The notes under the pieces: generated by a model
The model's database searches: none
Told to the model about the DNA's origin: nothing
The model's input: the letters and a program-made list of their open reading frames with translations, nothing else
In this document: positions 42,271-56,937 of the stretch, in pieces
Numbering within the stretch: the first letter of the stretch is position 1
Layout: each line of letters starts with the position of its first letter
Made by a program: the position numbers and the translations under genes
Assembly: GCF_002214505.1 (NCBI RefSeq)
Contig: NZ_CP015103.1
Coordinates: 310,001 to 374,000, forward strand
Direction: 5' to 3'
Source: Thermococcus siculi
GTDB lineage: Archaea > Methanobacteriota_B > Thermococci > Thermococcales > Thermococcaceae
DNA length: 64,000 nucleotides

Positions 42271-45200
42271 TCAGGAAGAGTTCCGAGGTATGAACAGCAG
42301 CCCTGCAACAATATGTGGTTTTGTCCCTTCTATTTCTCTTTTTTTAGCTTCTTCCTGAAGAGTTCTGCGGCGGGTAGCGATGCCAAAACGATCTATCAGT
42401 TCCTTGCAAAGCTCGATTATTTCTTCCGTGCGGGTGTTTCTGTGGACTTTTGCCTTCAGCAAGGCATCTTTAAACGGCTCATGGTTTAGATAACCCCACT
42501 GGACAAGATCTAATAATTTTGATATAACCTCCCTTTCCCCGGGGTTTTTGGTCCTCTCTAGCCTGCTCTGGAGCCTCTGAAGTACCAGTCTGATCTTGGG
42601 AGGGTACTTAGAGGGCCGCCTCCTACCGTATTCAAGGGTGCTGCCACTTATCTTTAGGAGCCTCTTAAAGTCTCTCAAGGCAATTCTTGCAACCTCACGA
42701 TAGAGTTCCATGGCATTTTCATCATTGTACGGTGGCGTTTCCTCTGACAGCCCGGTTCTGCCAATTAACTGCTCTATCGGAACGTTTTGCTTCTTCCATT
42801 CTCCCTCTACAAGCCTGTAGATCAGGTATTGCGACGTAGCACCGTTGGAGAGGACAAAGAAGGCATGAGGCTCCCTGGCCTCTGAAAGGGCAATGCTCCT
42901 CATTGAATACCTTTTTTTCAGTTCTTTAAACCTTTCTCTGTGGGACTCCAGGTATTCCCTTACAAGTTTCTCCGCGAATGTTGTGACCGAAAGGAGGGTC
43001 TTATCAGCTTCAAGTTCGATCTCGTCCAGGCTGCTGGTCCTGTAAATCGCCTCTATCGCGGACGGGTTCCACTCCTCGGACTCTTCGAGGATTTTGCCAT
43101 CGGCACCAAGTGCATTGTTGAACTCTGCAATTCTCCGCCTAACCTTTTCAACCAAACCCAAATTCTCTTCGAGTCTAGTCTCGGGGAAGAAGTTGTAGAC
43201 CAGGATTTCGTCATGTTCCGTTCCTATCCTGTCCACTCTTCCTATGCGCTGTATGAGCTTTATCGGGGTCCAGTGGAGGTCATAATTAACGACGACGTTT
43301 GCATCCTGGAGGTTGAGGCCCTCGCTGAGGACGTCCGTGGAGACAAGAACGTCAAGTTCATCCTCCCTGTCTATGTATTCTTCGTAGTTGTTTGCTCTCG
43401 GTGCAAACCGCCTTATCTTATCGGCGATTCCTTTTGTGTTTGAGCTTACGTAGGCCATCCTGCGTTTGAGCTCTTCATCCTCTATAATCTCTTGGAGCCC
43501 CTCATAGACCCACTGAACGGTCTCCTCAAACTCACTGAATACCAGTATCTTCTTCCCTTCCTTCCAAAGCCTCTGTATTTCTTCAGCGAGGACCTTCAGT
43601 TTCGGATCCCTTTCAGGGTTCTTCTTGAGGTATTCCTTTAAGGGGTACAGAGCCGCCTCCATGGCCCTGAGCTTTTCCAAATCGTAGCGGAGGTCATCCA
43701 GGAGTTCGCCCCTTCTGAAGGCACCGGCCTTGTACTGCGGAGTCCTCGAGGCAGTGAATTCCTTAATGAATTCTTCAACTTCCTCATCACTGAGAACCTT
43801 GGGTGCCCTGTTTCCGTTTATCTTTCCAAGAAGAACGTCATCAAACTCATCTCCAGCTGGGATGAACCTGTGCTCCACGAACTTGATGAAGTTCTCAGTC
43901 TTTATTATGTCCCTTTTCAGGGTCTGGTACATGGCATACCATGAACTCTCAAGGCGTTTGAGATAGAGGATCCTCATTAAGCCTCTCAAGTTTTTCCCGA
44001 TGGAGGACAGGTTTCTGTATGGCTCGGCTTCTCTGTAGTGGGGGATCACATAGTCATAGAGGGCAAACCTCGCGTATTTCATTGAGCTGATACCTGCGAG
44101 GAAGAGGGTGTAGATGTCATCCGGTTTTATCGGGGAGTCGAAGGCTATCCTTGAGACAAGCTCCTTGGGGATGAACTCAATTGGATAAACTTCTGAAATC
44201 TTGTACGTCAGGACTGAAAGCTTCCTCCTGGGGAAGCACAGTGGTTCTTTGCGCTTCTTTACTTTTATGCAGTTGTCCTTCCCCCCGTAGAGGCGCAGGA
44301 TATCGTATCTAGTTCTTCTTATCATGATCTCCCGAAGAACGTACGAGGGGTCTATTTCCCCTTTTTCAATGGCTTTCACAAGTTCGTCCCACGTTTGAGG
44401 GGTTATGGGAAACGGATGCCTCCTCTCAGGCAGGAAAAGACGAATCTGGTTGATTATGTCCCTGTACTGCTTTCTGTATGGGGTGGCGGTGAGTAGGATG
44501 ACCCTCTTGCCGGTAAGGAGCTCCTGAAGGTTTCTGTAGGACTTTGTGTTCGTGTTGGCGTAGTGGTGAGCCTCATCCACCAAAACAGTTTCTACGCTCC
44601 GGATGTATTTTTTCATTTCCTCGTACTTTTCGGGGGAAAGTTCCCTGCGGGGCAATAAACCTGCGGAAAACACCCGTCCTGGAATGCGGAATTCATTGAG
44701 GAGACCTTCCCAGTACCTAACCAGTTCAGGAGGGGCTATAACCGCAACTTCTTTTGAGCGACCTTGGAGGAACTCAAAGAGGGAGAAGTGCTCCAGTAAT
44801 GCAAGCCCTATGTAGCTCTTTCCAAGACCAACAACGTCACTTATGAGAACTCCACCATATTTGTTCACTATCGCTATGGCCCTCCTGACAGCGTCCCTCT
44901 GGAAATCGTAGAGAGTCTCATCCAGTTTTCTAAGGAGAAACCTTGAGTCCTCTTCCAGCACCTCCTTGTAGAGCTCGTAGAGACCCCGGATTAGGACCTC
45001 ATATGGCAGGGGGAGGTTTCCGGGAACTTGGTTTGCCCAGCTCCTCTCAATCACTTCAAGAAGCTTGGGGTTAAATGGTACCGCCTCCTCCCATATCTCA
45101 TCGTACCATTCTTTGAGGCTCTCAAAGTGCGTTGACTGGACGAGCGCGTTTAGCTCAGTATTGCCGGAGAATCCCGCCAGAGTGAAGTTGCTTGAGCCCA

Positions 45201-45744
45201 CCAGTCCAATTCTCGTAACCGAACCCCTTGCAGGGTAGAAGAGATAGGCCTTGGCGTGCATAAACTCCTTTACGTAGACGCGAATCTCAAGGTTCCCGTC
45301 TCTAAGCCATTCTAGCAGTTTTCGAAGGAACTCCTCGTTCTCTAGAGTCTGCTCCATATAGTTTGCGTTAGCCTCGATGTCCCTGCTCTGCTCATCCAAG
45401 TTAGATTTCTCGCTTTCAGTTTTTTCCTTCAATCTCTTCAGGGTTTCGAGTGAGTGGTAAACCATGCTTAACTGTTCGTATGTCTCCCTGTTGGTCTGGT
45501 TCCCAATGACTATGCGCATTTTTCCACCGCGGGAGAAGAACCCTTCAAGCTCATCCTGTATTTCCTTTAACCCGCTGATGAACAGAAAACCCACTGCAAC
45601 GTCTATCTGGCTGTAATCCCCGGATGTTAATATTTCTCTAAGGACATCTATCAGCTTGATTCCCTTTTTCTCGCCGTTCACTTCCCTGAGTCTGTTATCC
45701 ACAAGCCCATATTTATCGAGAAGGGAGATTGCAGATTCGGTCAT
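42271..45744 (-). CDS. PLD-nuclease/SNF2-type helicase fusion (defence)
   Basis: This 1157-residue protein has an N-terminal phospholipase-D-like domain with one HKD-type motif at about 161 (MHAKAYLFY...GSSNFTLAGF). It is followed by a SNF2/superfamily 2 helicase: Walker A VGLGKSY (about 305), DEAH (about 388), LLTATPYRK and motif VI QRIGRVDRIG (about 829). A helical C-terminal region completes it. PLD-SNF2 proteins act with adenine methyltransferases in restriction-like systems, and DrmD of DISARM is a SNF2 relative. ATG 45744 follows AGGTGGGTGA. It shares strand with, but is 11 kb from, the large methyltransferase. Confidence 0.85.
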   Translation of the reverse strand: MTESAISLLDKYGLVDNRLREVNGEKKGIKLIDVLREILTSGDYSQIDVAVGFLFISGLKEIQDELEGFFSRGGKMRIVIGNQTNRETYEQLSMVYHSLETLKRLKEKTESEKSNLDEQSRDIEANANYMEQTLENEEFLRKLLEWLRDGNLEIRVYVKEFMHAKAYLFYPARGSVTRIGLVGSSNFTLAGFSGNTELNALVQSTHFESLKEWYDEIWEEAVPFNPKLLEVIERSWANQVPGNLPLPYEVLIRGLYELYKEVLEEDSRFLLRKLDETLYDFQRDAVRRAIAIVNKYGGVLISDVVGLGKSYIGLALLEHFSLFEFLQGRSKEVAVIAPPELVRYWEGLLNEFRIPGRVFSAGLLPRRELSPEKYEEMKKYIRSVETVLVDEAHHYANTNTKSYRNLQELLTGKRVILLTATPYRKQYRDIINQIRLFLPERRHPFPITPQTWDELVKAIEKGEIDPSYVLREIMIRRTRYDILRLYGGKDNCIKVKKRKEPLCFPRRKLSVLTYKISEVYPIEFIPKELVSRIAFDSPIKPDDIYTLFLAGISSMKYARFALYDYVIPHYREAEPYRNLSSIGKNLRGLMRILYLKRLESSWYAMYQTLKRDIIKTENFIKFVEHRFIPAGDEFDDVLLGKINGNRAPKVLSDEEVEEFIKEFTASRTPQYKAGAFRRGELLDDLRYDLEKLRAMEAALYPLKEYLKKNPERDPKLKVLAEEIQRLWKEGKKILVFSEFEETVQWVYEGLQEIIEDEELKRRMAYVSSNTKGIADKIRRFAPRANNYEEYIDREDELDVLVSTDVLSEGLNLQDANVVVNYDLHWTPIKLIQRIGRVDRIGTEHDEILVYNFFPETRLEENLGLVEKVRRRIAEFNNALGADGKILEESEEWNPSAIEAIYRTSSLDEIELEADKTLLSVTTFAEKLVREYLESHRERFKELKKRYSMRSIALSEAREPHAFFVLSNGATSQYLIYRLVEGEWKKQNVPIEQLIGRTGLSEETPPYNDENAMELYREVARIALRDFKRLLKISGSTLEYGRRRPSKYPPKIRLVLQRLQSRLERTKNPGEREVISKLLDLVQWGYLNHEPFKDALLKAKVHRNTRTEEIIELCKELIDRFGIATRRRTLQEEAKKREIEGTKPHIVAGLLFIPRNSS

Positions 45745-46130
45745 CAGAGTTCACCCACCTGTCAGTGTTTACCGCCTTTTCTTCTTGAAGATATCCTAAC
45801 CAAGTTTTATCAATTTTGTGCAGAAGGTATCTAACACAATCTCTTAGTAGAAAGAGGTCAGTTGACACCAGTGTGTGTTGAGTGTAGCTTACCCGTCATA
45901 TCCTAAATGTGGGATCATAATGGCGTTAATGTACTTTGAATAATATGCTCGTTCAGAAAATGTGGATGATACTAGTCTTGTCTCCTCCTTAGACTGAATG
46001 AACGCTGGACAGAGTAAAAAAACCCATCATTGGTGATGGGTCATCACCTATTTGAGATTTTGAAGAGCTGGTGAGCTGGCCTCAAAGCCATATGGTTCGT
46101 ATTTTCCTGATGATCCACCTTACCTGCTGG
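45745..46130. other. gap between helicase and HEPN operators
   Basis: No gene is visible in this AT-rich stretch. It holds the upstream region of the helicase gene (a TATA-like AAAACTTGGTTAG on the minus strand is weak) and the terminator-like hairpin at 46016-46041. Confidence 0.5.
46016..46041 (-). terminator. hairpin plus T7 terminator on the minus strand
   Basis: The minus strand reads an 8-bp stem ACCCATCA/TGATGGGT with loop CCAA, directly followed by seven T. It lies between the seven-gene defence operon (read-through from 47251) and the helicase gene, so it would stop that transcript after it crosses the HEPN/MNT pair in antisense. Confidence 0.6.
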
Positions 46131-46132
46131 AG

Positions 46133-46224
46133 ATTATCATGGCAACAATACCTGGTGTTTCCACTTTTCCTGTTATCATGATAACAAAAAGCTTTATATA
46201 TATGCTATTGGTTATCATGACAAC
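46133..46224 (+). promoter_or_regulatory. triple palindromic operator around the HEPN/MNT promoter
   Basis: Three copies of GTTATCATGATAAC: 46133-46146 (imperfect), 46172-46185 (perfect; 16-bp palindrome at 46171-46186) and 46211-46224 (imperfect). Their centres are exactly 39 bp apart. The TATA box GCTTTATATATATG (46191-46204) lies between the second and third, and the third overlaps the expected transcription start. This is a layout for repression, probably by the toxin-antitoxin products. Confidence 0.8.
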
Positions 46225-46235
46225 GGGGAGATCGG

Positions 46236-46565
46236 ATGGTTAGTCTTCAGGAACTCAAGGCCAATGCCAAAGAATACCTCGAAGACGCTGACTACCTATT
46301 CAGCAAAGGCCACTACAACTCGGCCTTAAACCTCTACTTCAAGGCCCTCGTGGCAATTTGCGACTACATCATCCTCAGAGATGCCGGAAAACTCCCAAGA
46401 AACCACACCGAACGCTTCAGAATTCTGGAGGCCAAGTATCCAGAGATATACGAGATTGTGGACTTTCACTTCAACAACTACCGCAGAGCATACCTCATGA
46501 GGGCCACAGAGGAGTGGGTGGAGGTGCTAAAGAATGACGTCCACAGACTCTACACCAAAATCTGA
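46236..46565 (+). CDS. HEPN-domain protein (putative toxin)
   Basis: This 109-residue helical protein has HEPN-like features: N-terminal EYLEDADYLFSKGHYNSALN, the polar motif RNHTERFR in the loop, and FHFNNYRRAYLMRAT. Partners of this type are RNases held silent by a nucleotidyltransferase. ATG 46236 follows ACGGGGAG. The next gene overlaps its end by 32 bp. It is transcribed against the surrounding defence genes, so it is likely an inserted module. Confidence 0.75.
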   Translation: MVSLQELKANAKEYLEDADYLFSKGHYNSALNLYFKALVAICDYIILRDAGKLPRNHTERFRILEAKYPEIYEIVDFHFNNYRRAYLMRATEEWVEVLKNDVHRLYTKI

Positions 46566-47178
46566 CAGTCTTTTCTCATTTCCCTCCTTCTGGCATCTTA
46601 GGGATACGGTAAAGGACTTCCTCAAAAGCCACGAGGAAGTCTTCGATGTAGTCCTATACGGCTCAACAGTTCTAGGAAAGGAGAAACCCAACGACATAGA
46701 TCTGATGATACTCACCCGCGGGAAACTTCCGCCCCTGAAGCTCCGGGAGCTGATCCTCCAGCTGAAGGGGACCCTCTCTACAGCGATCCCTCGGGAAAAA
46801 CTCGACGTTAGGGCCATGAGCCTCGAAGAGCTCTTCGATCCCAACAACCTCGCGAGCCTTGGAGTGCTGGTTGAGGGCTACTCCCTCCGCCATAACAAAA
46901 ACCTCGCGGAGCTGATGAACGGGAAAGCCTACGCCATCTTCCGCTTCACTCTGGGAGGGCTTCCGAGGAAGGACAGGGTGCGCTTCCAGTACGCGCTGAA
47001 GGGAAGGGACATGAGAAGCGGTCTGCTGAAGGAGCTCAACGGTGAGCAGTGGGGAGCGTGGGTGGTGGCGGTGCCCATCCAGCACACGTACCGCTTTAGG
47101 GAGTTCCTCGAGCTGTGGGGGGTTAAGTACGAGGCCTTTACAGTCCTTAAAGGGGCGGACCTGTTTTACACGTTTTAG
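46534..47178 (+). CDS. nucleotidyltransferase (antitoxin-type, MNT family)
   Basis: This 214-residue protein has the polymerase-beta-like motif YGSTVLGKEKPNDIDLMIL (Gly-Ser and Asp-x-Asp intact) near residues 42-60. A C-terminal extension (about 100-214) is longer than in minimal MNT proteins. It is co-translated with the HEPN gene (overlap; GAGGTG upstream of ATG 46534). In such pairs the nucleotidyltransferase modifies the HEPN toxin. The extra domain may provide DNA binding to the operators; this is inference. Confidence 0.8.
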   Translation: MTSTDSTPKSDSLFSFPSFWHLRDTVKDFLKSHEEVFDVVLYGSTVLGKEKPNDIDLMILTRGKLPPLKLRELILQLKGTLSTAIPREKLDVRAMSLEELFDPNNLASLGVLVEGYSLRHNKNLAELMNGKAYAIFRFTLGGLPRKDRVRFQYALKGRDMRSGLLKELNGEQWGAWVVAVPIQHTYRFREFLELWGVKYEAFTVLKGADLFYTF

Positions 47179-47250
47179 CATGACATCTATTAAGCCCGGA
47201 CGCCAAGGTGCATGAAGAAACTAAAAAGCATCCATCGGCCTTATTTGTTC

Positions 47251-47730
47251 TCATTTGAGTGATATCCAAGGGGTTCTAACGTTCTCGTCACATGCAGTGA
47301 TCCAGGCTTTGTCAAAATTCTTTAACTCTCCCAGTAGCATTTTATCACGCTTTATGAGTGCCCCAACCACTGAAGTAACCTCTTCTGGGATTACCAAAAC
47401 AGCACAGTACCCTACGTTCTTTTTGCCACTCAATCCAAAAACGGGCATAAGTTCCTCTTTCAAGAGTTTTAGGGTCTGAGGAAACTTGCCCTGAAGGCTT
47501 TCACGAAGGTTTCCCTTAGTAACGTCATTTATCTCTTTGAGTTCTACTACGAGTGCTGTAAATTCCTCATTCTTAAAGGTGATGTACACAAAATCGCAGT
47601 GTGCTCCACCGATGCTCTTTGCCTTATGGTACATTTCGAGATTTAGAATTACGTATGGCTCGCCTCCTTCTATTCCTACACCACAATCGCCATCGCTGTA
47701 TTCTCCCTTTATCCTGTGCAATATTCTCAC
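47251..47730 (-). CDS. small PD-(D/E)xK-like putative nuclease
   Basis: This protein of up to 159 residues has the pattern D46 (HCDFVYITF) then E63-L-K65 (ALVVELKEIND), fitting the nuclease core D...ExK, with helices on either side. It directly follows the AAA ATPase with a 1-bp gap (TGA-G-GTG), so they are one unit. The start is GTG 47730, or a TTG at 47721 that lies better behind GAGGTGAG. The nuclease call rests on the motif alone. Confidence 0.6.
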   Translation of the reverse strand: MRILHRIKGEYSDGDCGVGIEGGEPYVILNLEMYHKAKSIGGAHCDFVYITFKNEEFTALVVELKEINDVTKGNLRESLQGKFPQTLKLLKEELMPVFGLSGKKNVGYCAVLVIPEEVTSVVGALIKRDKMLLGELKNFDKAWITACDENVRTPWISLK

Positions 47731-47731
47731 C

Positions 47732-49423
47732 TCACAAGCTTAGGGCCCATGAGGCTAGAATATCCGTGATTACTGTAATTCCCGGAACTTCTCTAAGGAT
47801 GTCCTTTGCAGAGATTTCAGACACTTCTACACTGCCATCGGGTTTAGGAACATAATAGTAAAACCTCATGTCGAGATCCTTTGCCTGTGAAACAGCTTTG
47901 GCAAGAGGTCTCACCTCTTCCTCCCCTACGTCGATAGCCTGTATTCTGAGCAGTTCCTGTATCAACTTGATTATGCTGTTTTCGTCATAATTAAGCTCCT
48001 TCAAATAGGCCAGTGTGATCGCGAGTACATCGCTGTGAGTGCTGAAGAGGATTTTGTGGTCAAACCCTTTTGAAAGGCCAGCCAGCACTAATGCCATTAA
48101 AATCTGAGCTGAGTAGTGCAGTTGAGCTTCTGGTTCTTCTATGATCAGGTAAGAATTTGGAGGGATGCTTAGAATGGGCAACATGATTCCTGAGACTTCC
48201 CCTGCGAGTGCGGAGGCTAAAGTTATTGGCACATCTGCAGAGCCCCATTTTTGATACCTAAGCTTTTTCACGGTGGTGTCAAACGTTAGTCTTCCTTGAA
48301 GAACTGGATTAAACAGCCTGGCAAGTTTTTCGTCGTATTCGTCCTTCAATAGTTTTCTGCGTCCCCTGGCGAGATGGTGGAGATATGAGTAGAAAACAAT
48401 GTTGTCTCTGTACATTGTAACGAATCTATCCCACAGGTACGGTTCATTGGAGATTGAATCAAGCTGGTAAACAAATGGACTCCTCCCGAAGGGGACGAAT
48501 AGGACTGAACTAATACCGAGGACGTCTTCATGTATGTTCTTAAGTGCCTCACTGATTTCTTTTGTAAGATAAGCCAGAAGATTCATTCCAAACCTAGACA
48601 ACTTTCTAAACATGGATCCAAAGCTTAATTCCAAGGGGAGACGGATTCTTGACCTTTGGAGGACTGTTTTAATCACTAAATCTGCACTCACATTTTCCTT
48701 GTCGGAGGGGAGTTCTTTGCTTACATACACTCTAATCTGTTCCCACAGGGGGCTGTGGAAAGGTATCTTGCTCTCTATTCTGATTGTTATATTCAAGTTT
48801 TTATCTAATCCAAGTTCAGAGGAAGCGTGAAGGAGGGAACTGATCATCAATTGCTCGTCGTTACTGACGTTTTCCCATGTGTGAGGGGTTTTCAAAATGT
48901 CCATAAAAATTGTCTCTAGCTCGGGAACCAACAGCTCGGGGATTTCGATTTTCGTACCCTCCTTAAGGGGCAATATTTCTTGAGTTAGGGAGAGAAGGTT
49001 TTCTTGGAACAAATCAACTATCACATCAATGTTGATGGATTCGGTAATCTTCAGGGCTACTACTAAACTATCGGCTTCTTCTCTTATTACTATTTCATCT
49101 AGCCCAAATCTCTCTCGTAAAATTCCGAGAATTTCATCGAGATTGTCCTGATTGATATAGTCATAAACTGCCATAGCAGTTATCAGACACCGGGGAGTCG
49201 TTCGCCTAATGAATGTTTCAATGCGATCCAAGAGCTCTAACTCCCTCACAGTTTTGACAAAGAGTCTCTCCCTTGCTACTTCATCAAGAAGCATGAGTTG
49301 AATGTAAGCGGATTTCAGGGTGTATGACTTTCCAGAGTTTGGAGGGCCAAGTAGCACGGTTATATCCCCAAGTTCCAGTTCGGCATCTTTTAATGGCCCC
49401 ACGTTTTTGATGGAGATTTTCAT
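47732..49423 (-). CDS. AAA/OLD-like ATPase (defence)
   Basis: This 563-residue protein starts with the SMC/OLD-type pattern KISIKNVGPLKDAELELGD and has Walker A GPPNSGKS (26-33). A long variable helical middle is followed by Walker B with extra Glu (YLIIEEPEAQLH) and the STHSD switch. No TOPRIM domain follows, so it is not a complete OLD nuclease. A separate nuclease-like protein is coded next. ATPase-nuclease pairs of this kind are common in phage defence. Composition is AT-rich, unlike core genes. Confidence 0.82.
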   Translation of the reverse strand: MKISIKNVGPLKDAELELGDITVLLGPPNSGKSYTLKSAYIQLMLLDEVARERLFVKTVRELELLDRIETFIRRTTPRCLITAMAVYDYINQDNLDEILGILRERFGLDEIVIREEADSLVVALKITESINIDVIVDLFQENLLSLTQEILPLKEGTKIEIPELLVPELETIFMDILKTPHTWENVSNDEQLMISSLLHASSELGLDKNLNITIRIESKIPFHSPLWEQIRVYVSKELPSDKENVSADLVIKTVLQRSRIRLPLELSFGSMFRKLSRFGMNLLAYLTKEISEALKNIHEDVLGISSVLFVPFGRSPFVYQLDSISNEPYLWDRFVTMYRDNIVFYSYLHHLARGRRKLLKDEYDEKLARLFNPVLQGRLTFDTTVKKLRYQKWGSADVPITLASALAGEVSGIMLPILSIPPNSYLIIEEPEAQLHYSAQILMALVLAGLSKGFDHKILFSTHSDVLAITLAYLKELNYDENSIIKLIQELLRIQAIDVGEEEVRPLAKAVSQAKDLDMRFYYYVPKPDGSVEVSEISAKDILREVPGITVITDILASWALSL

Positions 49424-49446
49424 TGGAGTCCACCCTCAAAAAGCAT

Positions 49447-50213
49447 TCAGCTTTTATTCTTTTTAACATTTTGGAGATCCCTCTTAAACTGGCATTCATT
49501 GAACTTCTGAGTGAACTCTTTGAGGCCGTGTCTGGCCGCTTTTTTGAAGCACCGCTTGTACCCTCGGTTGATTCCGAGGGCGTGGTTTATCACGATGAGT
49601 CCGGAGGTGGAGTTAAACTTTCCTATTCCCCTAGAAAGCTCCTGGCTAAAGACCTTCCTCTCCTTTTCGGTCTTTCGCATTTCCTGGGCAATCAGGGGCA
49701 GATAATCAGTGAGTGATTCGATATCAGGCTTTTCTTTTTCAAAGGCTTCGATTAGACCTTCGAGTAACACAATTTGTGTTCCATCCAGCTCAATGGCCGA
49801 GATTATCATTTTTTCGTGTCTCTTAACCAATCTCATTAATTCCTGCATGCTCTTCGTCATTTCAATGTAATCATTTTCAAGCTGTTCGATTATGGCCCTG
49901 GCCTTTTCTTTAGGTTCGAAGGGAGGCACTGCCACGGAGTACATTAAGAGTGCTCCAAAGGCGTAAGAAACGTCATCTGCCAGTTTTTCAAGATCCTTAC
50001 TGGCCTTGTCGAGCTTTTTCTGGAACGTGAGTGCTAGCGATCTTTTGAGATTCCTTTTCTCCTCCTCTTTCTTTCTCCACTTGATGAAGTCAACACCGAT
50101 TTTGAAAAACTCGTATAATGCGATGGCAAGGCTGAAGTATGGCTTGAGATTGGCGCAATTGTCCCTCCCGAGCCCGTAAAGATTTCAAATATTGCCTTGT
50201 CGAGCTCGTTCAT
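49447..50213 (-). pseudogene. coiled-coil protein gene with one frameshift
   Basis: The start MNELDKAIFE (ATG 50213, GGTGGGGA site) runs out of frame near 50184. One base removed from an A-run (GAAAATC to GAAATC) would explain it. The restored product is about 255 residues: ...NLYGLGRDNCANLKPYFSLA..., then FKIGVDFIKWRKKEEEKRNL and a long charged helix region to the stop at 49447. I recognise no family. It lies between the nuclease-like gene and the ATPase in the same operon. A sequencing error is possible. Confidence 0.75.
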
Positions 50214-50225
50214 CGGAATCCCCAC

Positions 50226-50237
50226 CTAACATGTTAG
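50226..50237. promoter_or_regulatory. 12-bp palindrome upstream of the coiled-coil gene
   Basis: CTAACATGTTAG is a perfect palindrome just before the ribosome site, in a 60-bp gap with an AT-rich CAATAATAA stretch that could be an internal TATA box. A possible operator; no direct evidence. Confidence 0.3.
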
Positions 50238-50273
50238 TTATTATTGAGATGGCTTTGATTTTGGGAGGGAACT

Positions 50274-51188
50274 TCACTCAAGTCTCCTAAGCTCTCTTTC
50301 GTCTACTGGAGTGAATGTGAACTCAATGACCCCAAATGTTCCTTCCCCGTAGTATTCTTCAAATTCACTTGGGGGATCTGGCTGAAGGCCTGTAAATCTG
50401 TAAATTGTATTAACTAGATCTTTCAATTCCGAATTCGAAGTCATGCCATTGTTGATAACATACCCACCAATTCCATTCTTTCTGAGGAACTTGTAGAGCC
50501 ATAATGCATAGCTTCCGCATACAAATTTATTATACCATGTGCAACCTGAAAATGAGGGTATTGTTGAGTAAATGACTGGGACAAAGAAATCCATTGGGAT
50601 TGTGTAATCTTTGCATGGTTTTTGTCTCCAAAGCTCAACTATCTCGGGACTCGCAGCTAAATTGGGAATATCCTCGGATGTAGACATTAGTAAATATGTA
50701 AACAACCATTTAGATTTAGAGGTTATTTTTCTTTTCCTCTGAGAACCCCACCTTTTTCCAAAGTGAAATGGATACTTGCTAGGGGTAAACAAGAATTCTT
50801 GCTGATGAGCGCTTATTTTCCAGTTATTTGTACTTTTATTTAACTTAGCTTGCAAGAAAGACGTGCGCATCTGGTCGATCATTCTGCGCCCATTATGATA
50901 CTTAATCACAAACAAAATGTCCCCTAGCTCTACACGAGACTTGTTACATGGGCCACTGTTTGAAGAAAAAAGCGCATAAGGCTTTTGATGGACGACTTTA
51001 GATCTGATCTGGAGGCGATAATATCCAAACCCGCGTACCCATATTAGGTACTTGTTATGCTGTTGAAGTCTACCAATATACTCATTAACAATCTGAGGCT
51101 CACTTAACGAGGGATTTTCTAAAATCACCTGTTTTAGCATTCCATCCAAAGATGCCGACAACACATCGAGTGGTACTGGACCAGTCAT
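50274..51188 (-). CDS. putative nuclease (PD-(D/E)xK, QxK variant) of the Kiwa-like cassette
   Basis: This 304-residue protein has D90 in VELGDILFVIKYH and Q113-A-K115 in TSFLQAKLNK. This resembles the QxK variant of the PD-(D/E)xK active site seen in some defence nucleases. The rest has mixed composition with several Trp and Cys (FSGCTWYNKFVCGSYA). It starts 6 bp after the KwaB-like gene with AGGTGAG, so the three genes form one unit. I recognise no named family. Confidence 0.6.
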   Translation of the reverse strand: MTGPVPLDVLSASLDGMLKQVILENPSLSEPQIVNEYIGRLQQHNKYLIWVRGFGYYRLQIRSKVVHQKPYALFSSNSGPCNKSRVELGDILFVIKYHNGRRMIDQMRTSFLQAKLNKSTNNWKISAHQQEFLFTPSKYPFHFGKRWGSQRKRKITSKSKWLFTYLLMSTSEDIPNLAASPEIVELWRQKPCKDYTIPMDFFVPVIYSTIPSFSGCTWYNKFVCGSYALWLYKFLRKNGIGGYVINNGMTSNSELKDLVNTIYRFTGLQPDPPSEFEEYYGEGTFGVIEFTFTPVDERELRRLE

Positions 51189-51194
51189 ACTTTC

Positions 51195-52307
51195 TCACCT
51201 CAGCTCCTCTGGTTTTCCCTTTGAAATGTGCTTGTTATTCAGAGTTTTTGTAAATCTAGCCCCTATCACACCCAGAATCTCCCTAACAGCCTTTTTGTAT
51301 TCCTTAGAGTTAGTAGGTGGAAGTATGACCCTATTTGCAGTTTCATCAATATCAAACGAAACCTCCTCGCCGAACTTCTCTTTTACCCATTTGAAGTCTT
51401 CTATGGTTGCTTCGTTCATGTATTGCCTTGTCACAGGATGGAGTAGCATTTTATAGAGCTGTCTGTTGGATTCCACAACCTGCTTAAAATTCTGGAGGTC
51501 TTCATCTGCGAGAACTGATTGAAGCATATTACATTGCTCCAGGACTTCTAGGGCTTTTTGTTTTTGGTGTTCATAGACATCTAGCAAAGACTCAAAGCCA
51601 CCCTTATTCCAGATTACCCCCCAAGACGACTCTGCCCTATTGGGATCCCTCTCATCAAACCTCACAATGAACACAAAGTCTGCAGAATTATCAAACTCAA
51701 TTCCCTCAACAGTTTCTATGGCATTAAAGGCTAGTATTAGTCCATCATCTCCGGTTTCTTCAATGGAGTTAAGTACAGTTCCTCTATGGACGAGACCACC
51801 TTTTAGGAAACGTTTTTTGACAACTTTGGATTTTGAAAGTCGTTTAGCATATCCAATAGCATACTGTGAACCACGTAGGAAAAATAAGTATCCCCACAAG
51901 TTACTCTCGATGTTCTTGGGCGTTCTCTCTACCTCATAATCAAGTCTAAGAGCTTCAGTAAAATAAGACCAATATGGAAAGTCTATGGGAGACAATTCAA
52001 CATAACAAGGTGTCTCTTCTAAATCAGGATGATACCGAGGGATGCTCTCTGTTTCCAACTTCGAAAGAGAGCCAATGTATGTAGACAAGATTTCCTTTAA
52101 GCTATCTGCAACTTCATCTGTAATTCCTGCATAATAAAAGAGATACTTGTATTGCCTGTTTTCCCCGTCTTGCTTAGGATACCTCTTAATAATAAACATC
52201 TCCGGAACTAAGCCTTCTCTCCCAATTTCGGGAAATCTAGAGGTAATTTCTGAAATATTAATTCTTGCTAGATCGTTCCCATCTGAATCAACTCTTGTTT
52301 GGTTCAT
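51195..52307 (-). CDS. KwaB-like protein (DUF4868), Kiwa-type defence
   Basis: This 370-residue soluble protein resembles the DUF4868 family, to which KwaB of the Kiwa anti-phage system belongs. Support includes strands such as ILAFNAIETVEGIEF, FVFIVRFDE and the WGVIWNKGGFESLLDVYEH region. KwaB acts with the membrane protein KwaA and binds DNA. The gene overlaps the four-helix membrane protein gene by 20 bp in the order kwaA-kwaB, which strengthens the call. The match is from memory and partial; an HMM search is needed. Confidence 0.55.
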   Translation of the reverse strand: MNQTRVDSDGNDLARINISEITSRFPEIGREGLVPEMFIIKRYPKQDGENRQYKYLFYYAGITDEVADSLKEILSTYIGSLSKLETESIPRYHPDLEETPCYVELSPIDFPYWSYFTEALRLDYEVERTPKNIESNLWGYLFFLRGSQYAIGYAKRLSKSKVVKKRFLKGGLVHRGTVLNSIEETGDDGLILAFNAIETVEGIEFDNSADFVFIVRFDERDPNRAESSWGVIWNKGGFESLLDVYEHQKQKALEVLEQCNMLQSVLADEDLQNFKQVVESNRQLYKMLLHPVTRQYMNEATIEDFKWVKEKFGEEVSFDIDETANRVILPPTNSKEYKKAVREILGVIGARFTKTLNNKHISKGKPEELR

Positions 52308-52836
52308 ACTTACTCACGCCCCCCTTGTGATGAATAAAGATATTGGAACCGTTATCGAGTGAATACGCCTGCAAAAATAACTCTTCATTCCTATTAAGCT
52401 TTTCTCTAGATAAGAGTATCCCATCTTTATTATTAATTGTGCATAAATAGAGATTGTATCCGAAGAGTAACTTTAGGAGAGGGTTAACTGCAAAAAGGGA
52501 TGTGGTTAGATAAAGGGCAAAGATAACAACGATTAAAATCCCCATGGAGATTACATCATTCACAGTCTTGATAGTTCCAATAAAAGGAACTATGTATGTG
52601 ACAATAAAACCAACATATTGTTCATTAATATCTCTATCTATCTTGACCACTATTGGTTGTCCGATTAGCTTTTTCACAGAACTCATGACAGCCCAAGCCA
52701 TTAGGAAAATAATAACAAATACTCCCGTACCAACAATAAGTCCCAACTTTAGAGGAAGATTCTTTATTGAGAGTATCACAAAAAGGGGAGAATACGCCAG
52801 CAAACTTAGAATAAGTTTTGCCCATCTCTTAAGCAT
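52288..52836 (-). CDS. KwaA-like four-helix membrane protein
   Basis: This 182-residue protein has four hydrophobic helices (about 8-27, 31-51, 74-90, 97-120) and a cytoplasmic C-terminal domain of about 55 residues. YIVPFIGT lies in helix 3, and NPLLKLLFGYNLYL follows helix 4. Kiwa's KwaA is a small four-helix membrane sensor coded just before KwaB, as here. GGGAGAGG precedes ATG 52836, and the methyltransferase stop lies 15 bp upstream. The membrane topology is clear; the family call is inferred from size and context. Confidence 0.55.
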   Translation of the reverse strand: MLKRWAKLILSLLAYSPLFVILSIKNLPLKLGLIVGTGVFVIIFLMAWAVMSSVKKLIGQPIVVKIDRDINEQYVGFIVTYIVPFIGTIKTVNDVISMGILIVVIFALYLTTSLFAVNPLLKLLFGYNLYLCTINNKDGILLSREKLNRNEELFLQAYSLDNGSNIFIHHKGGVSKYEPNKS

Positions 52837-52851
52837 GGGGCCTCTCCCTCC

Positions 52852-55800
52852 TCACCCCTTCTTTTTCTTCCCTGAAAACGTCTTCGCCTTCACCAGCCTC
52901 GCCTTCACGAGCTCCACGACGGCCCTGTAAACCTCAAGCTGCTCCTCCTCGGTCAAGCCGAGCGCCTCGAAGATCACCCTGTCAAGCTCGCGCCTGTCGG
53001 GTAGAACCTTATCGAGGGAGACGTCCTCAGGGTTGATGTTGCTCAGGTCGCGGTTGGGCTTCGGGAGGCCGAGCTCCTCGAAGATGGATTTGATTGTGCG
53101 GTTGGCCATTTGTTCGAAGGCTTGGAGGAGACGTTGGATCTGAGTCTGAGACAAACTAGTTGGATCGGGGACAAAAATCTCAGCAGTTTCATAAACTTTG
53201 AAATCCAATGCTCCTTCTCCTAGGTTAGCTCTTCCCGTAAGTTCAATTATCATGGGAGTTAAAGTAGTATTTAAAACACCAGCTAGGAGTGCTGAGGGAA
53301 CATTGTTCTTTTTGTAGATGTCATACAAACGAGCATCACATAAAGCAACGTCATTCAACCAAAATGGGAATCTTGTATTGTAGCTCATCATAGAAGCCAG
53401 ATTTCCTATTTTTCTTTCTCCTAATGCCCACCAAGGATTTCTCGCTCTACATGTAGGCTTATCTTGATACCCCTTGCCTTCTCCCCACTCGATGTACTCT
53501 AAGGCGTGAACCTTGCCAGCTCTCTTTAGCTCTTCCTTTGAGAGGTTGCATAGGAACACACGAAGATTCAGATCTTCGGGTCTAATCACATAGGTCTTTA
53601 TCTCTTGTGGACTCTTAACAACAGGCCTCAAAAACTCCTCTTCAATGTACCCCTCCCAACCGGCTCTGTTCCTCACCGCCACCAGGCCCTCTCCCGGCTT
53701 GTGAACCCTTCCACACAGGGGACAGACGGGCCACTCTGTCGGGTTCTTTATCGGCTCCAGATAGAAGAACTCGTTGGCCCCAGTTTTGATGCCAAACCTG
53801 ACCTCTGCAATCTCCCCAAGCTTCACCAGCTTGTCCTTCCCCTTGTCGAGGATCACGTAGAATATCCTCGGCGCCCTTATGAGTATCCCGCCCCACTTCA
53901 TCCCGCTGTATTCACCGAAGATGTTGTAGGTTCCCAGAAGTGGGTTCCTCTTCCCGACCTCGAAGCCCCCCATTTTGGCGAGCTCCACCGCTTTGACGCT
54001 CCTTATCCTCGCCTCATCGTCCTCGTAGCTGTGGACAACCCCTCCGAAGACCTCGACACCCTTCACCTTTCCGGCGTAGCATTCGAGCAGCTTCGCCGCA
54101 ACTTTGGAGTCAACTCCCTCAAAGCCCATCTTCAGCAGGATGAAGTTGACGCACTCTCCCCCCACAGTGTTGAAGAGCTCCTTGGGCTTTCTAGTGAGGA
54201 CAGTTATCACGGTGTTCACATCTGCCTGCTCGAAGCTCCTCCTCGTGTAGTCAATCACCGCCCTCAGGTGGGTGAAGCGGAGGAAGAACTCCTGCAGGGC
54301 CTTTCCGAAGTCCACATCCAGCCACGAGTTTGATGTAATGAATACCAGCGATCCCTTCGGGTTCAGCAGGTTGACCGACTGGATGAAGAAGTACGAGTAG
54401 AGGTCGCTCCTGCCGGGGAGCTTCATCTCACCCTTGAACTTCTCCTTTATTATGGTTTCCATGTGGGTCTTTATCTTGTTCTTGTAGTCCTTCTTCAGCC
54501 TCTCCTGCTCCTTCTTCGGGAGCATCTGGAACTCCGCTAAATCGTAGTACTCCGGGTAGATCTTCTCCTGCCGCACATACGGTGGGTTCGCTATCACGAT
54601 ATCGAAGCCCTTCTTTTCGAGCATCACATCGGGGAAGTCGAGCTCCCAGATGAACGGGGGCTTCTCGAGGGCGGAGAAGTCCTCCTTCTTCACCGCCTCA
54701 AGGAGTAGCCTGATTTCCTTCTTCTCTTTCGCTTTCAGCTCCTCCTGAAGGGCCATCTCAAGGAACTCCTGGAGGACTCCCCACTTGGCTTTCTCTATGT
54801 CCCTGAGCGTTACGGGCTTGCCCTCTATCTTCTCGCCCATGTAGTACTTCCTCACGAGCCCCTTGTAGGCCACTATGGCCTCGCTGGCGCCCCTCCTTGC
54901 ACCAAGAAGCTTGAGGCCCTCACGGAACTTGGCGAGGGGTATCTCAATGACCTTCCTCCCTCCACCGACCTTCAGAACGAAGTGGGGAGGCGCCAAAGAG
55001 TCTCCAACCGTCAGCTTCGTCTCAAGGTTGGGCAGTATCGGCTCGTTGGGGATTCTCTCCTCTTCCTCGATGAGGGCCAGCCAGAGCCTAAGCTTCGCGA
55101 CCCTTATCGCCCACTCCTTGATGTCAACGCCGTAGATGTTGTCTCGTATTATCTCAAGCTTTTTCTTGTAGGTTGCCTTACTGTCCTCCGTCAGCTTCTC
55201 GTGGAGCTCGATGAGAAGGTGATACATGCCAACGAGGAAGGCACCGCTTCCGGCTGCGGGGTCAACTATCTTAACCTCGTTGAGGGCTTTTTCAAGCTCC
55301 TCAATCTCTCCCCACGACAGCTTCCCTGGTTTCCACTCGTGAGCGGGCGTAAAAACGAACTCCCTCACGAGTTCCTCCCCACTCCCCGTGTTCCTGCGGA
55401 GGTACTGGTAAACGGCCATCCTGCACATGAAGTCAACCTCTGCCCGCGGGGTGTAGAATATCCCTGAGGCTCTTCTCTCCTCTTCCTCACCGGCCTTTTC
55501 CTCCTCCGCAATGAGGGACTCGTATATCTTACCGAGCATGGCCGGGTCAACGGCCACCTCAACCTCATAAGGAGTCTCTTCGGTGACGGTGAAGTTGTAT
55601 CCATCAAAGAAGTCAACTATTATCCTCCTGAGCAGGCTGTCGTCAATCTCTGTAACTATCTCGTCTAGGTTCACGCCCTCCATCTTAATTGGGCTGAAGA
55701 GACCGCCGTTGAAGTAGGGGACACCGTAGAGGAAGACGTCCCTAACTGTGGGGGACGGTATTTTAGAGAGGGCCTCCTTGATTTCAGGGGTTTTAAGCCT

Positions 55801-56799
55801 GGCCCAGTCTCTTCTTGGAGTGTTCATCGCGTGGAGGAACAGAGCCCTCAGGTAACCACCGTAAAAGTTGCCCCCATACTCCTCGTGCTGCTCCAGAAGC
55901 CACCTGACGAAGTTCTTAACGTCAACTTTTTCCTGGAGCTCCTTTCTGAGGGCGGCTTTATCGACTATCCACCCCTTCTTCTGGAGGAAGTAGACGAACA
56001 TAAGCCTGTTGAAGAAGGTGTGAGCGAATGTCTTGGCGGCTCTCTCAACAAAAATCTCCTCAGCCTTGTCCCTTGGAACCGTTACGGACTCATCCACGGT
56101 CGAGAGGTAATTCCCCGGACAGGCAGTTCTAAGCATCTCCCCATAATTGGTCTTTATCCAGTCCTTGAGCTTCAGGTAATACCTCTTGTAGTCCTCAAAA
56201 AACTGCTCGGTTAAAGGCTGTACTAGCATGTGTTCATTTATCAGGGCCCTAATCTCACTTGCGGGAGGTACTTTCTTTTTCTTCTCAATTTCTTCAGCAA
56301 CCCTGGCAAGGTTCCAAGCAAGGGTTCTCAATCTCTTATCCTCAGGATCAATTGTGTAGATATTAAGCTTCGTGCTCTCCAACTGTCTCTGATAGACGGG
56401 TACGATGAGCTTCCAAAACTTGCGGGGGCCTCTGGGCGATTTCTTAACGTCGAGAATGAGAATGAAATTTGCAAAGTCCATCCCAACGGAACCTGTGAAC
56501 TCCAAGAGCTTCTTTATCAACCTCTGTCTGTATTTCACGGTGTCGCTCCAGGTCTCGCCGTATATCACAAAGAATTCGGCACCCTCTTCAGGTTTAGTGA
56601 TGGCAATAACCCTTAGAACTCCAGTGTTTTCTTCAACAAAGCCATCAAGGTAATCCATCTCTATGTCCTCATCTTCATAGCCAAATCCCCAGAACCTAGT
56701 AAAAATCTCGCGGAAGGTTCTAACGGCTTCGTCAGTTTTAATCCCCTTTTCAAGCCCCTCAAGAATAGCCCTGATTTTCTCGGCTTTGTCCTTAACCAT
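52852..56799 (-). CDS. Eco57I-like adenine-specific DNA methyltransferase (defence/RM)
   Basis: This 1315-residue protein has an N-terminal helical/nuclease-like region (about 1-200), a long middle region, SAM motif I PAAGSGAFLVG (about 512-523) and the catalytic NPPY (about 736) for N6-adenine methylation. A C-terminal target-recognition region includes a CPLCGRVH zinc-knuckle-like Cys pair. It resembles Eco57I/PglX-type enzymes. I start at MVKDK (56799), six bases behind AGGTGGG. A segment at about 53140-53600 is much more AT-rich than the rest, as expected for an exchanged recognition domain. It heads the defence operon. Confidence 0.85.
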   Translation of the reverse strand: MVKDKAEKIRAILEGLEKGIKTDEAVRTFREIFTRFWGFGYEDEDIEMDYLDGFVEENTGVLRVIAITKPEEGAEFFVIYGETWSDTVKYRQRLIKKLLEFTGSVGMDFANFILILDVKKSPRGPRKFWKLIVPVYQRQLESTKLNIYTIDPEDKRLRTLAWNLARVAEEIEKKKKVPPASEIRALINEHMLVQPLTEQFFEDYKRYYLKLKDWIKTNYGEMLRTACPGNYLSTVDESVTVPRDKAEEIFVERAAKTFAHTFFNRLMFVYFLQKKGWIVDKAALRKELQEKVDVKNFVRWLLEQHEEYGGNFYGGYLRALFLHAMNTPRRDWARLKTPEIKEALSKIPSPTVRDVFLYGVPYFNGGLFSPIKMEGVNLDEIVTEIDDSLLRRIIVDFFDGYNFTVTEETPYEVEVAVDPAMLGKIYESLIAEEEKAGEEEERRASGIFYTPRAEVDFMCRMAVYQYLRRNTGSGEELVREFVFTPAHEWKPGKLSWGEIEELEKALNEVKIVDPAAGSGAFLVGMYHLLIELHEKLTEDSKATYKKKLEIIRDNIYGVDIKEWAIRVAKLRLWLALIEEEERIPNEPILPNLETKLTVGDSLAPPHFVLKVGGGRKVIEIPLAKFREGLKLLGARRGASEAIVAYKGLVRKYYMGEKIEGKPVTLRDIEKAKWGVLQEFLEMALQEELKAKEKKEIRLLLEAVKKEDFSALEKPPFIWELDFPDVMLEKKGFDIVIANPPYVRQEKIYPEYYDLAEFQMLPKKEQERLKKDYKNKIKTHMETIIKEKFKGEMKLPGRSDLYSYFFIQSVNLLNPKGSLVFITSNSWLDVDFGKALQEFFLRFTHLRAVIDYTRRSFEQADVNTVITVLTRKPKELFNTVGGECVNFILLKMGFEGVDSKVAAKLLECYAGKVKGVEVFGGVVHSYEDDEARIRSVKAVELAKMGGFEVGKRNPLLGTYNIFGEYSGMKWGGILIRAPRIFYVILDKGKDKLVKLGEIAEVRFGIKTGANEFFYLEPIKNPTEWPVCPLCGRVHKPGEGLVAVRNRAGWEGYIEEEFLRPVVKSPQEIKTYVIRPEDLNLRVFLCNLSKEELKRAGKVHALEYIEWGEGKGYQDKPTCRARNPWWALGERKIGNLASMMSYNTRFPFWLNDVALCDARLYDIYKKNNVPSALLAGVLNTTLTPMIIELTGRANLGEGALDFKVYETAEIFVPDPTSLSQTQIQRLLQAFEQMANRTIKSIFEELGLPKPNRDLSNINPEDVSLDKVLPDRRELDRVIFEALGLTEEEQLEVYRAVVELVKARLVKAKTFSGKKKKG

Positions 56800-56937
56800 A
56801 GCCATCCCACCTGCGACTTTATCTGGGGAATAATCACCAAGTGGAGTATTTTAGGGTTGCGGTGGCTATTTATAAATTCTGAAGTGGAAGGGAAATTATT
56901 TATTCCCATATCACTATGGAACATCGGGTGAACCGCT

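Follow-up and report, generated by a model that had tools for sequence, protein, structure and literature searches.

Evenly spaced palindromes at the promoter of an archaeal HEPN/MNT gene pair as a probable autoregulatory operator

Introduction

Among the toxin-antitoxin modules predicted in prokaryotes, HEPN-MNT gene pairs are described as the most abundant (PMC7641770). In Shewanella oneidensis, the MNT protein SO_3165 binds its own promoter in gel shift experiments and represses it; this promoter carries two dissimilar palindromes, and the protein has no predicted DNA-binding domain (PMC4621449). It is the only MNT that we found reported as binding its promoter, and those later structural papers that were searched are silent on operators. 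In 2009 Makarova et al. had judged regulation of transcription to be an unlikely role for the putative antitoxin and had suggested that a DNA-binding partner acts in trans (PMC2701414). Here we analyze a 64,000-nucleotide stretch of Thermococcus siculi DNA (the window; C1:310001-374000 of a 2.03-Mb single-contig Thermococcaceae genome), in which a HEPN/MNT pair is preceded by three evenly spaced palindromes. The original prediction that drew attention to these sites held that HEPN/MNT pairs are not well known for clear operators. The SO_3165 report corrects this in that promoter binding by an MNT has a precedent, though one with dissimilar palindromes and a protein that has no known DNA-binding domain.

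The T. siculi pair resembles SO_3165/SO_3166 (MntA/HepT; PMC4621449, PMC7641770) in its gene content, in the fold of its MNT and in the presence of palindromes near the core promoter. It differs in gene order, the MNT gene coming first in Shewanella and HEPN coming first here, in that the Shewanella HEPN has the Rx4-6H motif, and in that the solved MNT of that system (119-125 residues) does not carry the C-terminal ferredoxin-like domain of the T. siculi protein. With the AF_0298-like HEPN-T protein (PDB 2hsb), the T. siculi HEPN shares the fold (Foldseek TM score 0.87), the lack of Rx4-6H and an invariant His in the loop between helices 2 and 3, although the two are only 14% identical and the T. 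siculi protein is associated with operators and with an MNT of two domains. An alternative histidine has been described for AF0298-like HEPN-T and for AbiV (PMC3710099). AbiE (type IV) systems, such as AbiEi of S. agalactiae and Rv2827c, are also nucleotidyltransferase-related, have an antitoxin with one domain for DNA and one for antitoxicity, and autoregulate through repeated inverted repeats (PMC7319586). Their domain layout is different; in T. siculi the nucleotidyltransferase itself bears the C-terminal ferredoxin-like domain. No AbiE family was found among the PADLOC or Pfam matches of the two T. siculi proteins, and the N-terminus of MNT is a nucleotidyltransferase domain. The comparison suggests an answer to how HEPN/MNT pairs control themselves: the palindromes are probably the autoregulatory operator of the operon, read by the C-terminal domain of MNT, which would in this way repress its own promoter.

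Three palindromes at the promoter of the HEPN/MNT operon

Three 14-bp palindromes lie upstream of the pair, at spacings of exactly 39 and 39 bp. Copy 1 (ATTATCATGGCAAC, 46133-46146) has three mismatches to GTTATCATGATAAC, and its position is also kept in orthologues. The core of copy 2 (46172-46185) is GTTATCATGATAAC without mismatch and extends to a perfect 16-bp palindrome (TGTTATCATGATAACA, 46171-46186). Copy 3 (GTTATCATGACAAC, 46211-46224), with one mismatch, is separated by 11 bp from the HEPN start codon. The TATA box (TTTATATATAT, 46193-46203, + strand) is found in the spacer between copies 2 and 3 (46187-46210, + strand; 25 bp if the 14-bp core of copy 2 is taken as the boundary), and copy 3 is located approximately 25 bp downstream of it, at the position expected for an archaeal start site.

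Matches to the operator with up to three mismatches number eight in the window, against 1.29 expected, and none of 100 shuffles reached this value. The palindrome-pair score of the promoter at spacing 39 is 19.5, while the highest score among 300 dinucleotide shuffles, taken across spacings of 30-49, was 16.0. The coordinates, window counts and shuffles thus bear out the original prediction as to the three centres, their 39-bp spacing, the perfect middle copy and the TATA box between the second and third sites. Its placement of copy 3 over the start site agrees with the distance from the TATA box, from which alone the start position is deduced. A pattern search of the 2.03-Mb genome revealed no other exact copy.

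Sites and geometry are conserved at homologous loci

The comparison was extended to approximately 50 related HEPN/MNT pairs, and the palindromes are conserved across homologous loci of Thermococcaceae and DPANN. Pairs with 60-95% MNT identity occur in approximately 17 Thermococcaceae genomes, and nearly all of them keep copies at the same three positions. When 14 orthologous promoters were aligned, the sites carried 1.68, 1.73 and 1.82 bits per base, against 0.64 for spacer 1 and 1.09 for spacer 2, which holds the TATA box; both 25-bp spacers are constant in length and, the TATA box excepted, variable in sequence. The upstream flanks of orthologues are unrelated, except for one locus common to three genomes, which indicates that operator and pair move together, with no third gene seen to accompany them. 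A single relative was identified on a plasmid (54 kb, T. barophilus MP) and none on viral contigs. A contig from a metagenome-assembled genome of Helicobacteraceae (L130) encodes a Thermococcus-like MNT (90% identity) and is probably mis-binned.

In more distant pairs (38-50% identity) the palindromes have other sequences and are likewise 39 bp apart. Seven further half-sites were recognized (GTTTATC, GTTAATC, GTAGGAA, GTAGTCA, GTTCTCA, GTATAG and GTAATAA), in operators that include GTAGGAATTCCTAC, GTAGTCATGACTAC and an inverted GGTCATGAGAAC-N25-GTTCTCATGACC arrangement. Only one promoter with symmetric copies has a best period other than 39, and when 16 promoters were pooled this spacing scored 17.9 versus 11.3 +/- 0.4 for the others. 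The arrangement is absent from ten HEPN genes of the same genomes and family that have no detected MNT partner. DPANN homologues were found in Nanoarchaeota, Woesearchaeota, Pacearchaeota and Nanohaloarchaeota; there the palindrome is GTTRTA-N3-TAYAAC, of 15 bp, at 40 bp and often in a 40-18-40 series. Four such loci (L141, L139, L143 and L145) show two pairs with a 25-bp gap placed 18 bp apart, a layout unlike the row of three in Thermococci.

Since 14-bp sites lie 39 bp apart and 15-bp sites 40 bp apart, the invariant is the 25-bp gap between palindromes, which usually straddles the TATA box. The equal 39-bp spacing of the original prediction is therefore real in Thermococcaceae, but it is the gap that is constant, the DPANN 15-mers sitting at 40. 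A mere promoter layout was considered as the source of this spacing and rejected, in light of copy 1, which is positioned upstream of the promoter with that very spacing, and of the 40-18-40 DPANN arrays. The 6-bp half-sites that face each other are 31 bp, or approximately three helical turns, apart and would lie on one face of the DNA if 10.5 bp per turn are assumed.

The sites overlap the operon promoter and co-evolve with the pair. Because they are conserved at homologous loci and change together with the pair, autoregulation is strongly supported as by far the best reading of these operators, as judged from comparative sequence data. Could the repeats instead be non-regulatory, either remnants of mobile elements or a structural repeat that travels with the module? 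The module does move between loci, and two-copy scars persist where pairs were lost; however, the sequence of the sites shifts by clade while their geometry around the TATA box remains constant, and the sites are far more conserved than the spacers. We regard this explanation as highly improbable.

A separate transcription factor, encoded elsewhere and reading the operator as part of a three-component system with MNT-HEPN, would be in line with the DNA-binding component in trans proposed for MNT-HEPN in general (PMC2701414), and with the lack of a characterised DNA-binding domain in HEPN or MNT. Related pairs within one genome nevertheless each have their own operator (genome G052 harbors three pairs with three different ones), across different phyla and loci the operator stays with its pair and no third gene is seen linked to them, the T. 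siculi genome offers such a factor no other exact site, and operator type covaries with a helix of the MNT C-terminal domain, as described below. Taken with these observations, a trans-acting reader appears improbable.

The HEPN and MNT proteins

Adjacent HEPN and MNT genes, both intact, are present in 27 Thermococcaceae loci. In the window, the HEPN gene (46236-46565, + strand) encodes 109 residues and the MNT gene (46534-47178, + strand) 214, the start of the latter overlapping the end of the former by 32 bp. HEPN matches the Pfam HEPN family below the cut-off (E = 9.6e-4), but its AlphaFold model (predicted local distance difference test score, pLDDT, of 96) matches the archaeal HEPN structures 2q00, 2hsb and 1wol, as well as 1o3u, which confirms the HEPN helical-bundle fold, of HEPN-T-like type. 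The conserved Rx4-6H motif is absent from the family alignment, in which His57 and Arg60 are invariant instead; His57, unchanged in 33 aligned sequences, lies in the loop between helices 2 and 3, at the junction that follows helix 27-50 of the model, and corresponds to the alternative histidine of AF0298-like HEPN-T and AbiV (PMC3710099). Since this catalytic motif is missing, we do not file the pair as a HepT/MntA (type VII) member.

MNT matches Pfam Polbeta and NTP_transf_2 above the cut-off. Its nucleotidyltransferase domain (residues 19-114; 46588-46875, + strand) carries the GS...DxD signature and a third Asp (D54, D56, D91), these three residues and G43 being invariant in the alignment.

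HEPN is broken or absent while MNT is intact in 13 loci, and the reverse was encountered in none. The loss of HEPN only, never of MNT only, is the pattern expected for a toxin (HEPN) with its antitoxin (MNT), although sequencing errors are possible in some of the draft genomes that contribute to the 13. Lacking Rx4-6H, HEPN is no more than a putative toxin, which MNT may neutralise through AMPylation; the HEPN-only losses bear on this role indirectly. In three related pairs (L096, L097 and L098) the HEPN frames are broken at approximately the same place, after RVVD, possibly by slippage, phase variation or programmed frameshifting. In two other loci (L101 in G005 and L102 in G007) most of the HEPN gene is deleted, while MNT remains and the palindromes persist at 39-bp spacing.

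A previously undescribed C-terminal domain in MNT

The AlphaFold model of MNT (pLDDT 86) consists of the N-terminal nucleotidyltransferase domain, which matches the solved MNT antitoxins 8xeo, 7ae9, 5yep and 2rff (Z approximately 7-9.7), and a C-terminal ferredoxin-like domain (residues 130-208; 46921-47157, + strand), which we propose as the DNA-binding domain. The latter is absent from solved MNTs, is confined to this MNT family among the 94 genomes searched, and is previously undescribed. Searches of solved structures by sequence with HEPN and with MNT returned nothing useful, and by fold the C-terminal domain matches common folds only, such as procarboxypeptidase pro-domains.

The DNA-binding domain of papillomavirus E2 is a ferredoxin-like dimer whose first helix reads short palindromes. 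That helix corresponds to the one implicated here in the C-terminal domain of MNT, and E2 serves as a lead only: the two show no detectable relation, and E2 is not among the structure matches listed, which excludes nothing.

Covariation of operators with the first helix of the MNT C-terminal domain

Once overall MNT distance is removed, operator difference correlates best with MNT residues 138-155 (partial r 0.59), a value that was reached by 0 of 5000 random 16-column sets and by 0 of 2000 label permutations; for HEPN windows, r is at most 0.27. Pairs with GTTTATC and GTTAATC operators are set apart by 16 columns in MNT, of which the C-terminal domain holds 12, and by 0 in HEPN. Residues 145-156 (codons at 46966-47001, + strand), in the first helix of the domain, are proposed as recognition helix, with positions 149, 152 and 153 variable. 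Within Thermococcaceae, base 3 of the half-site is T where MNT has Tyr153 and A where it has Phe153 or His153; base 4 is G where MNT has Ser152 and T where it has Leu152. A further locus (L185), fetched after the pattern had been seen, fits it: GTAGTCATGACTAC occurs there twice with a gap of 25, and its MNT has Ser152-Phe153 as in the other GTAG operators.

Alternatively, autoregulation may be real and the DNA contacts made by HEPN, or only by a composite HEPN-MNT surface. Many type II toxin-antitoxin operons are bound best by the complex, and the 25-bp gap hints at a multimer that bridges the sites. The low HEPN correlations and the absence of a distinguishing HEPN column between the two operator classes argue in the other direction, as do the palindromes kept in 12 of the 13 loci where HEPN is broken or missing and MNT intact, although these losses could be recent. 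Such contacts are, in our estimation, unlikely. The proposal of autoregulation by the pair is thereby sharpened: operators are conserved and co-evolve with it, and within the pair the comparative evidence points more narrowly to the C-terminal domain of MNT.

Several observations weigh against assigning the operator to this domain. Sequence comparison with Pfam and PDB gave no relative for it, and no DNA-binding relative is known by sequence; ferredoxin-like structure matches are commonplace. The half-site consensus on which the covariation relies was assigned by hand. One DPANN locus (L144) combines Phe153 with T at base 3 and breaks the pattern, and at another locus (L103) MNT is intact and the operator was not seen. 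On the tree, base 3 of the operator changed four times, but the well-supported branches yield only one independent pair; with so few independent switches a tree-aware sign test is without power, and the covariation of residue 153 with base 3 is suggestive, not proof.

Proposed mechanism

With the C-terminal domain of MNT as the most likely reader, the pair would constitute a new variant of the HEPN-MNT module. Dimers of this domain would bind each palindrome, the first helix reading the half-site. At least two bound palindromes, separated by exactly 25 bp, would flank the region of the TFB recognition element (BRE) and the TATA box and cover the start site, and could in this way block TATA-binding protein (TBP), TFB and RNA polymerase. 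Half-sites 31 bp apart could be bridged by a complex, possibly MNT-HEPN2-MNT. The cooperative binding or wrapping suggested by the original prediction may also occur. A more specific form of this model, which we put forward tentatively and hold to be possible rather than probable, is that the domain represents a new palindrome-reading ferredoxin-like family in which residues 152 and 153 face bases 4 and 3, that MNT-HEPN2-MNT bridges across the TATA box, and that occupancy is set by the HEPN:MNT ratio or by AMPylation.

In this more specific form, a single protein would combine the roles of enzyme, antitoxin and sequence-specific repressor. An archaeal branch that spans Thermococci and DPANN shows a defined operator, an invariant geometry and a candidate DNA-reading domain inside a nucleotidyltransferase. 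The natural operator variants make specificity directly testable by exchange of one helix, and any model of the complex has to accommodate the fixed 25-bp gap as a structural constraint.

Operator sites outside HEPN/MNT pairs

A general regulon mark was also considered for the palindrome and rejected: among the inspected cases in the 94 genomes, exact sites outside pairs lie in coding sequence, including VVMITGIPGVGKST and CheY-like genes, or are scars of lost pairs. A single plasmid hit (L093, 1501-1514; G086:C2:11988) is neither a coding match nor an assigned scar, being one perfect intergenic palindrome near a VapBC-like pair.

In five loci (L083, L084, L086, L077 and L113) one or two copies, mostly two at 39 bp, adjoin a gene for a PF01877 RNA-binding protein, the pair being missing there. 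These copies could be scars, or the gene could have been captured by the operator; in G048 the pair adjoins the apparent start of the same PF01877 gene. At L078 (1501-1553; G047:C36), where there is no HEPN/MNT pair, two perfect copies 39 bp apart precede a gene for a DNA methylase (PF01555).

Genomic neighbourhood

The T. siculi pair sits in a defence island (window 42271-56805). This island comprises a PLD-Snf2 helicase (42271-45744), an AAA_15 ATPase (47732-49423), a KwaA/KwaB (Kiwa) pair (KwaA 52288-52836, KwaB 51195-52307) and a type IIG restriction-methylase (52852-56805). That a hyperthermophilic archaeon carries Kiwa may be of interest in its own right.
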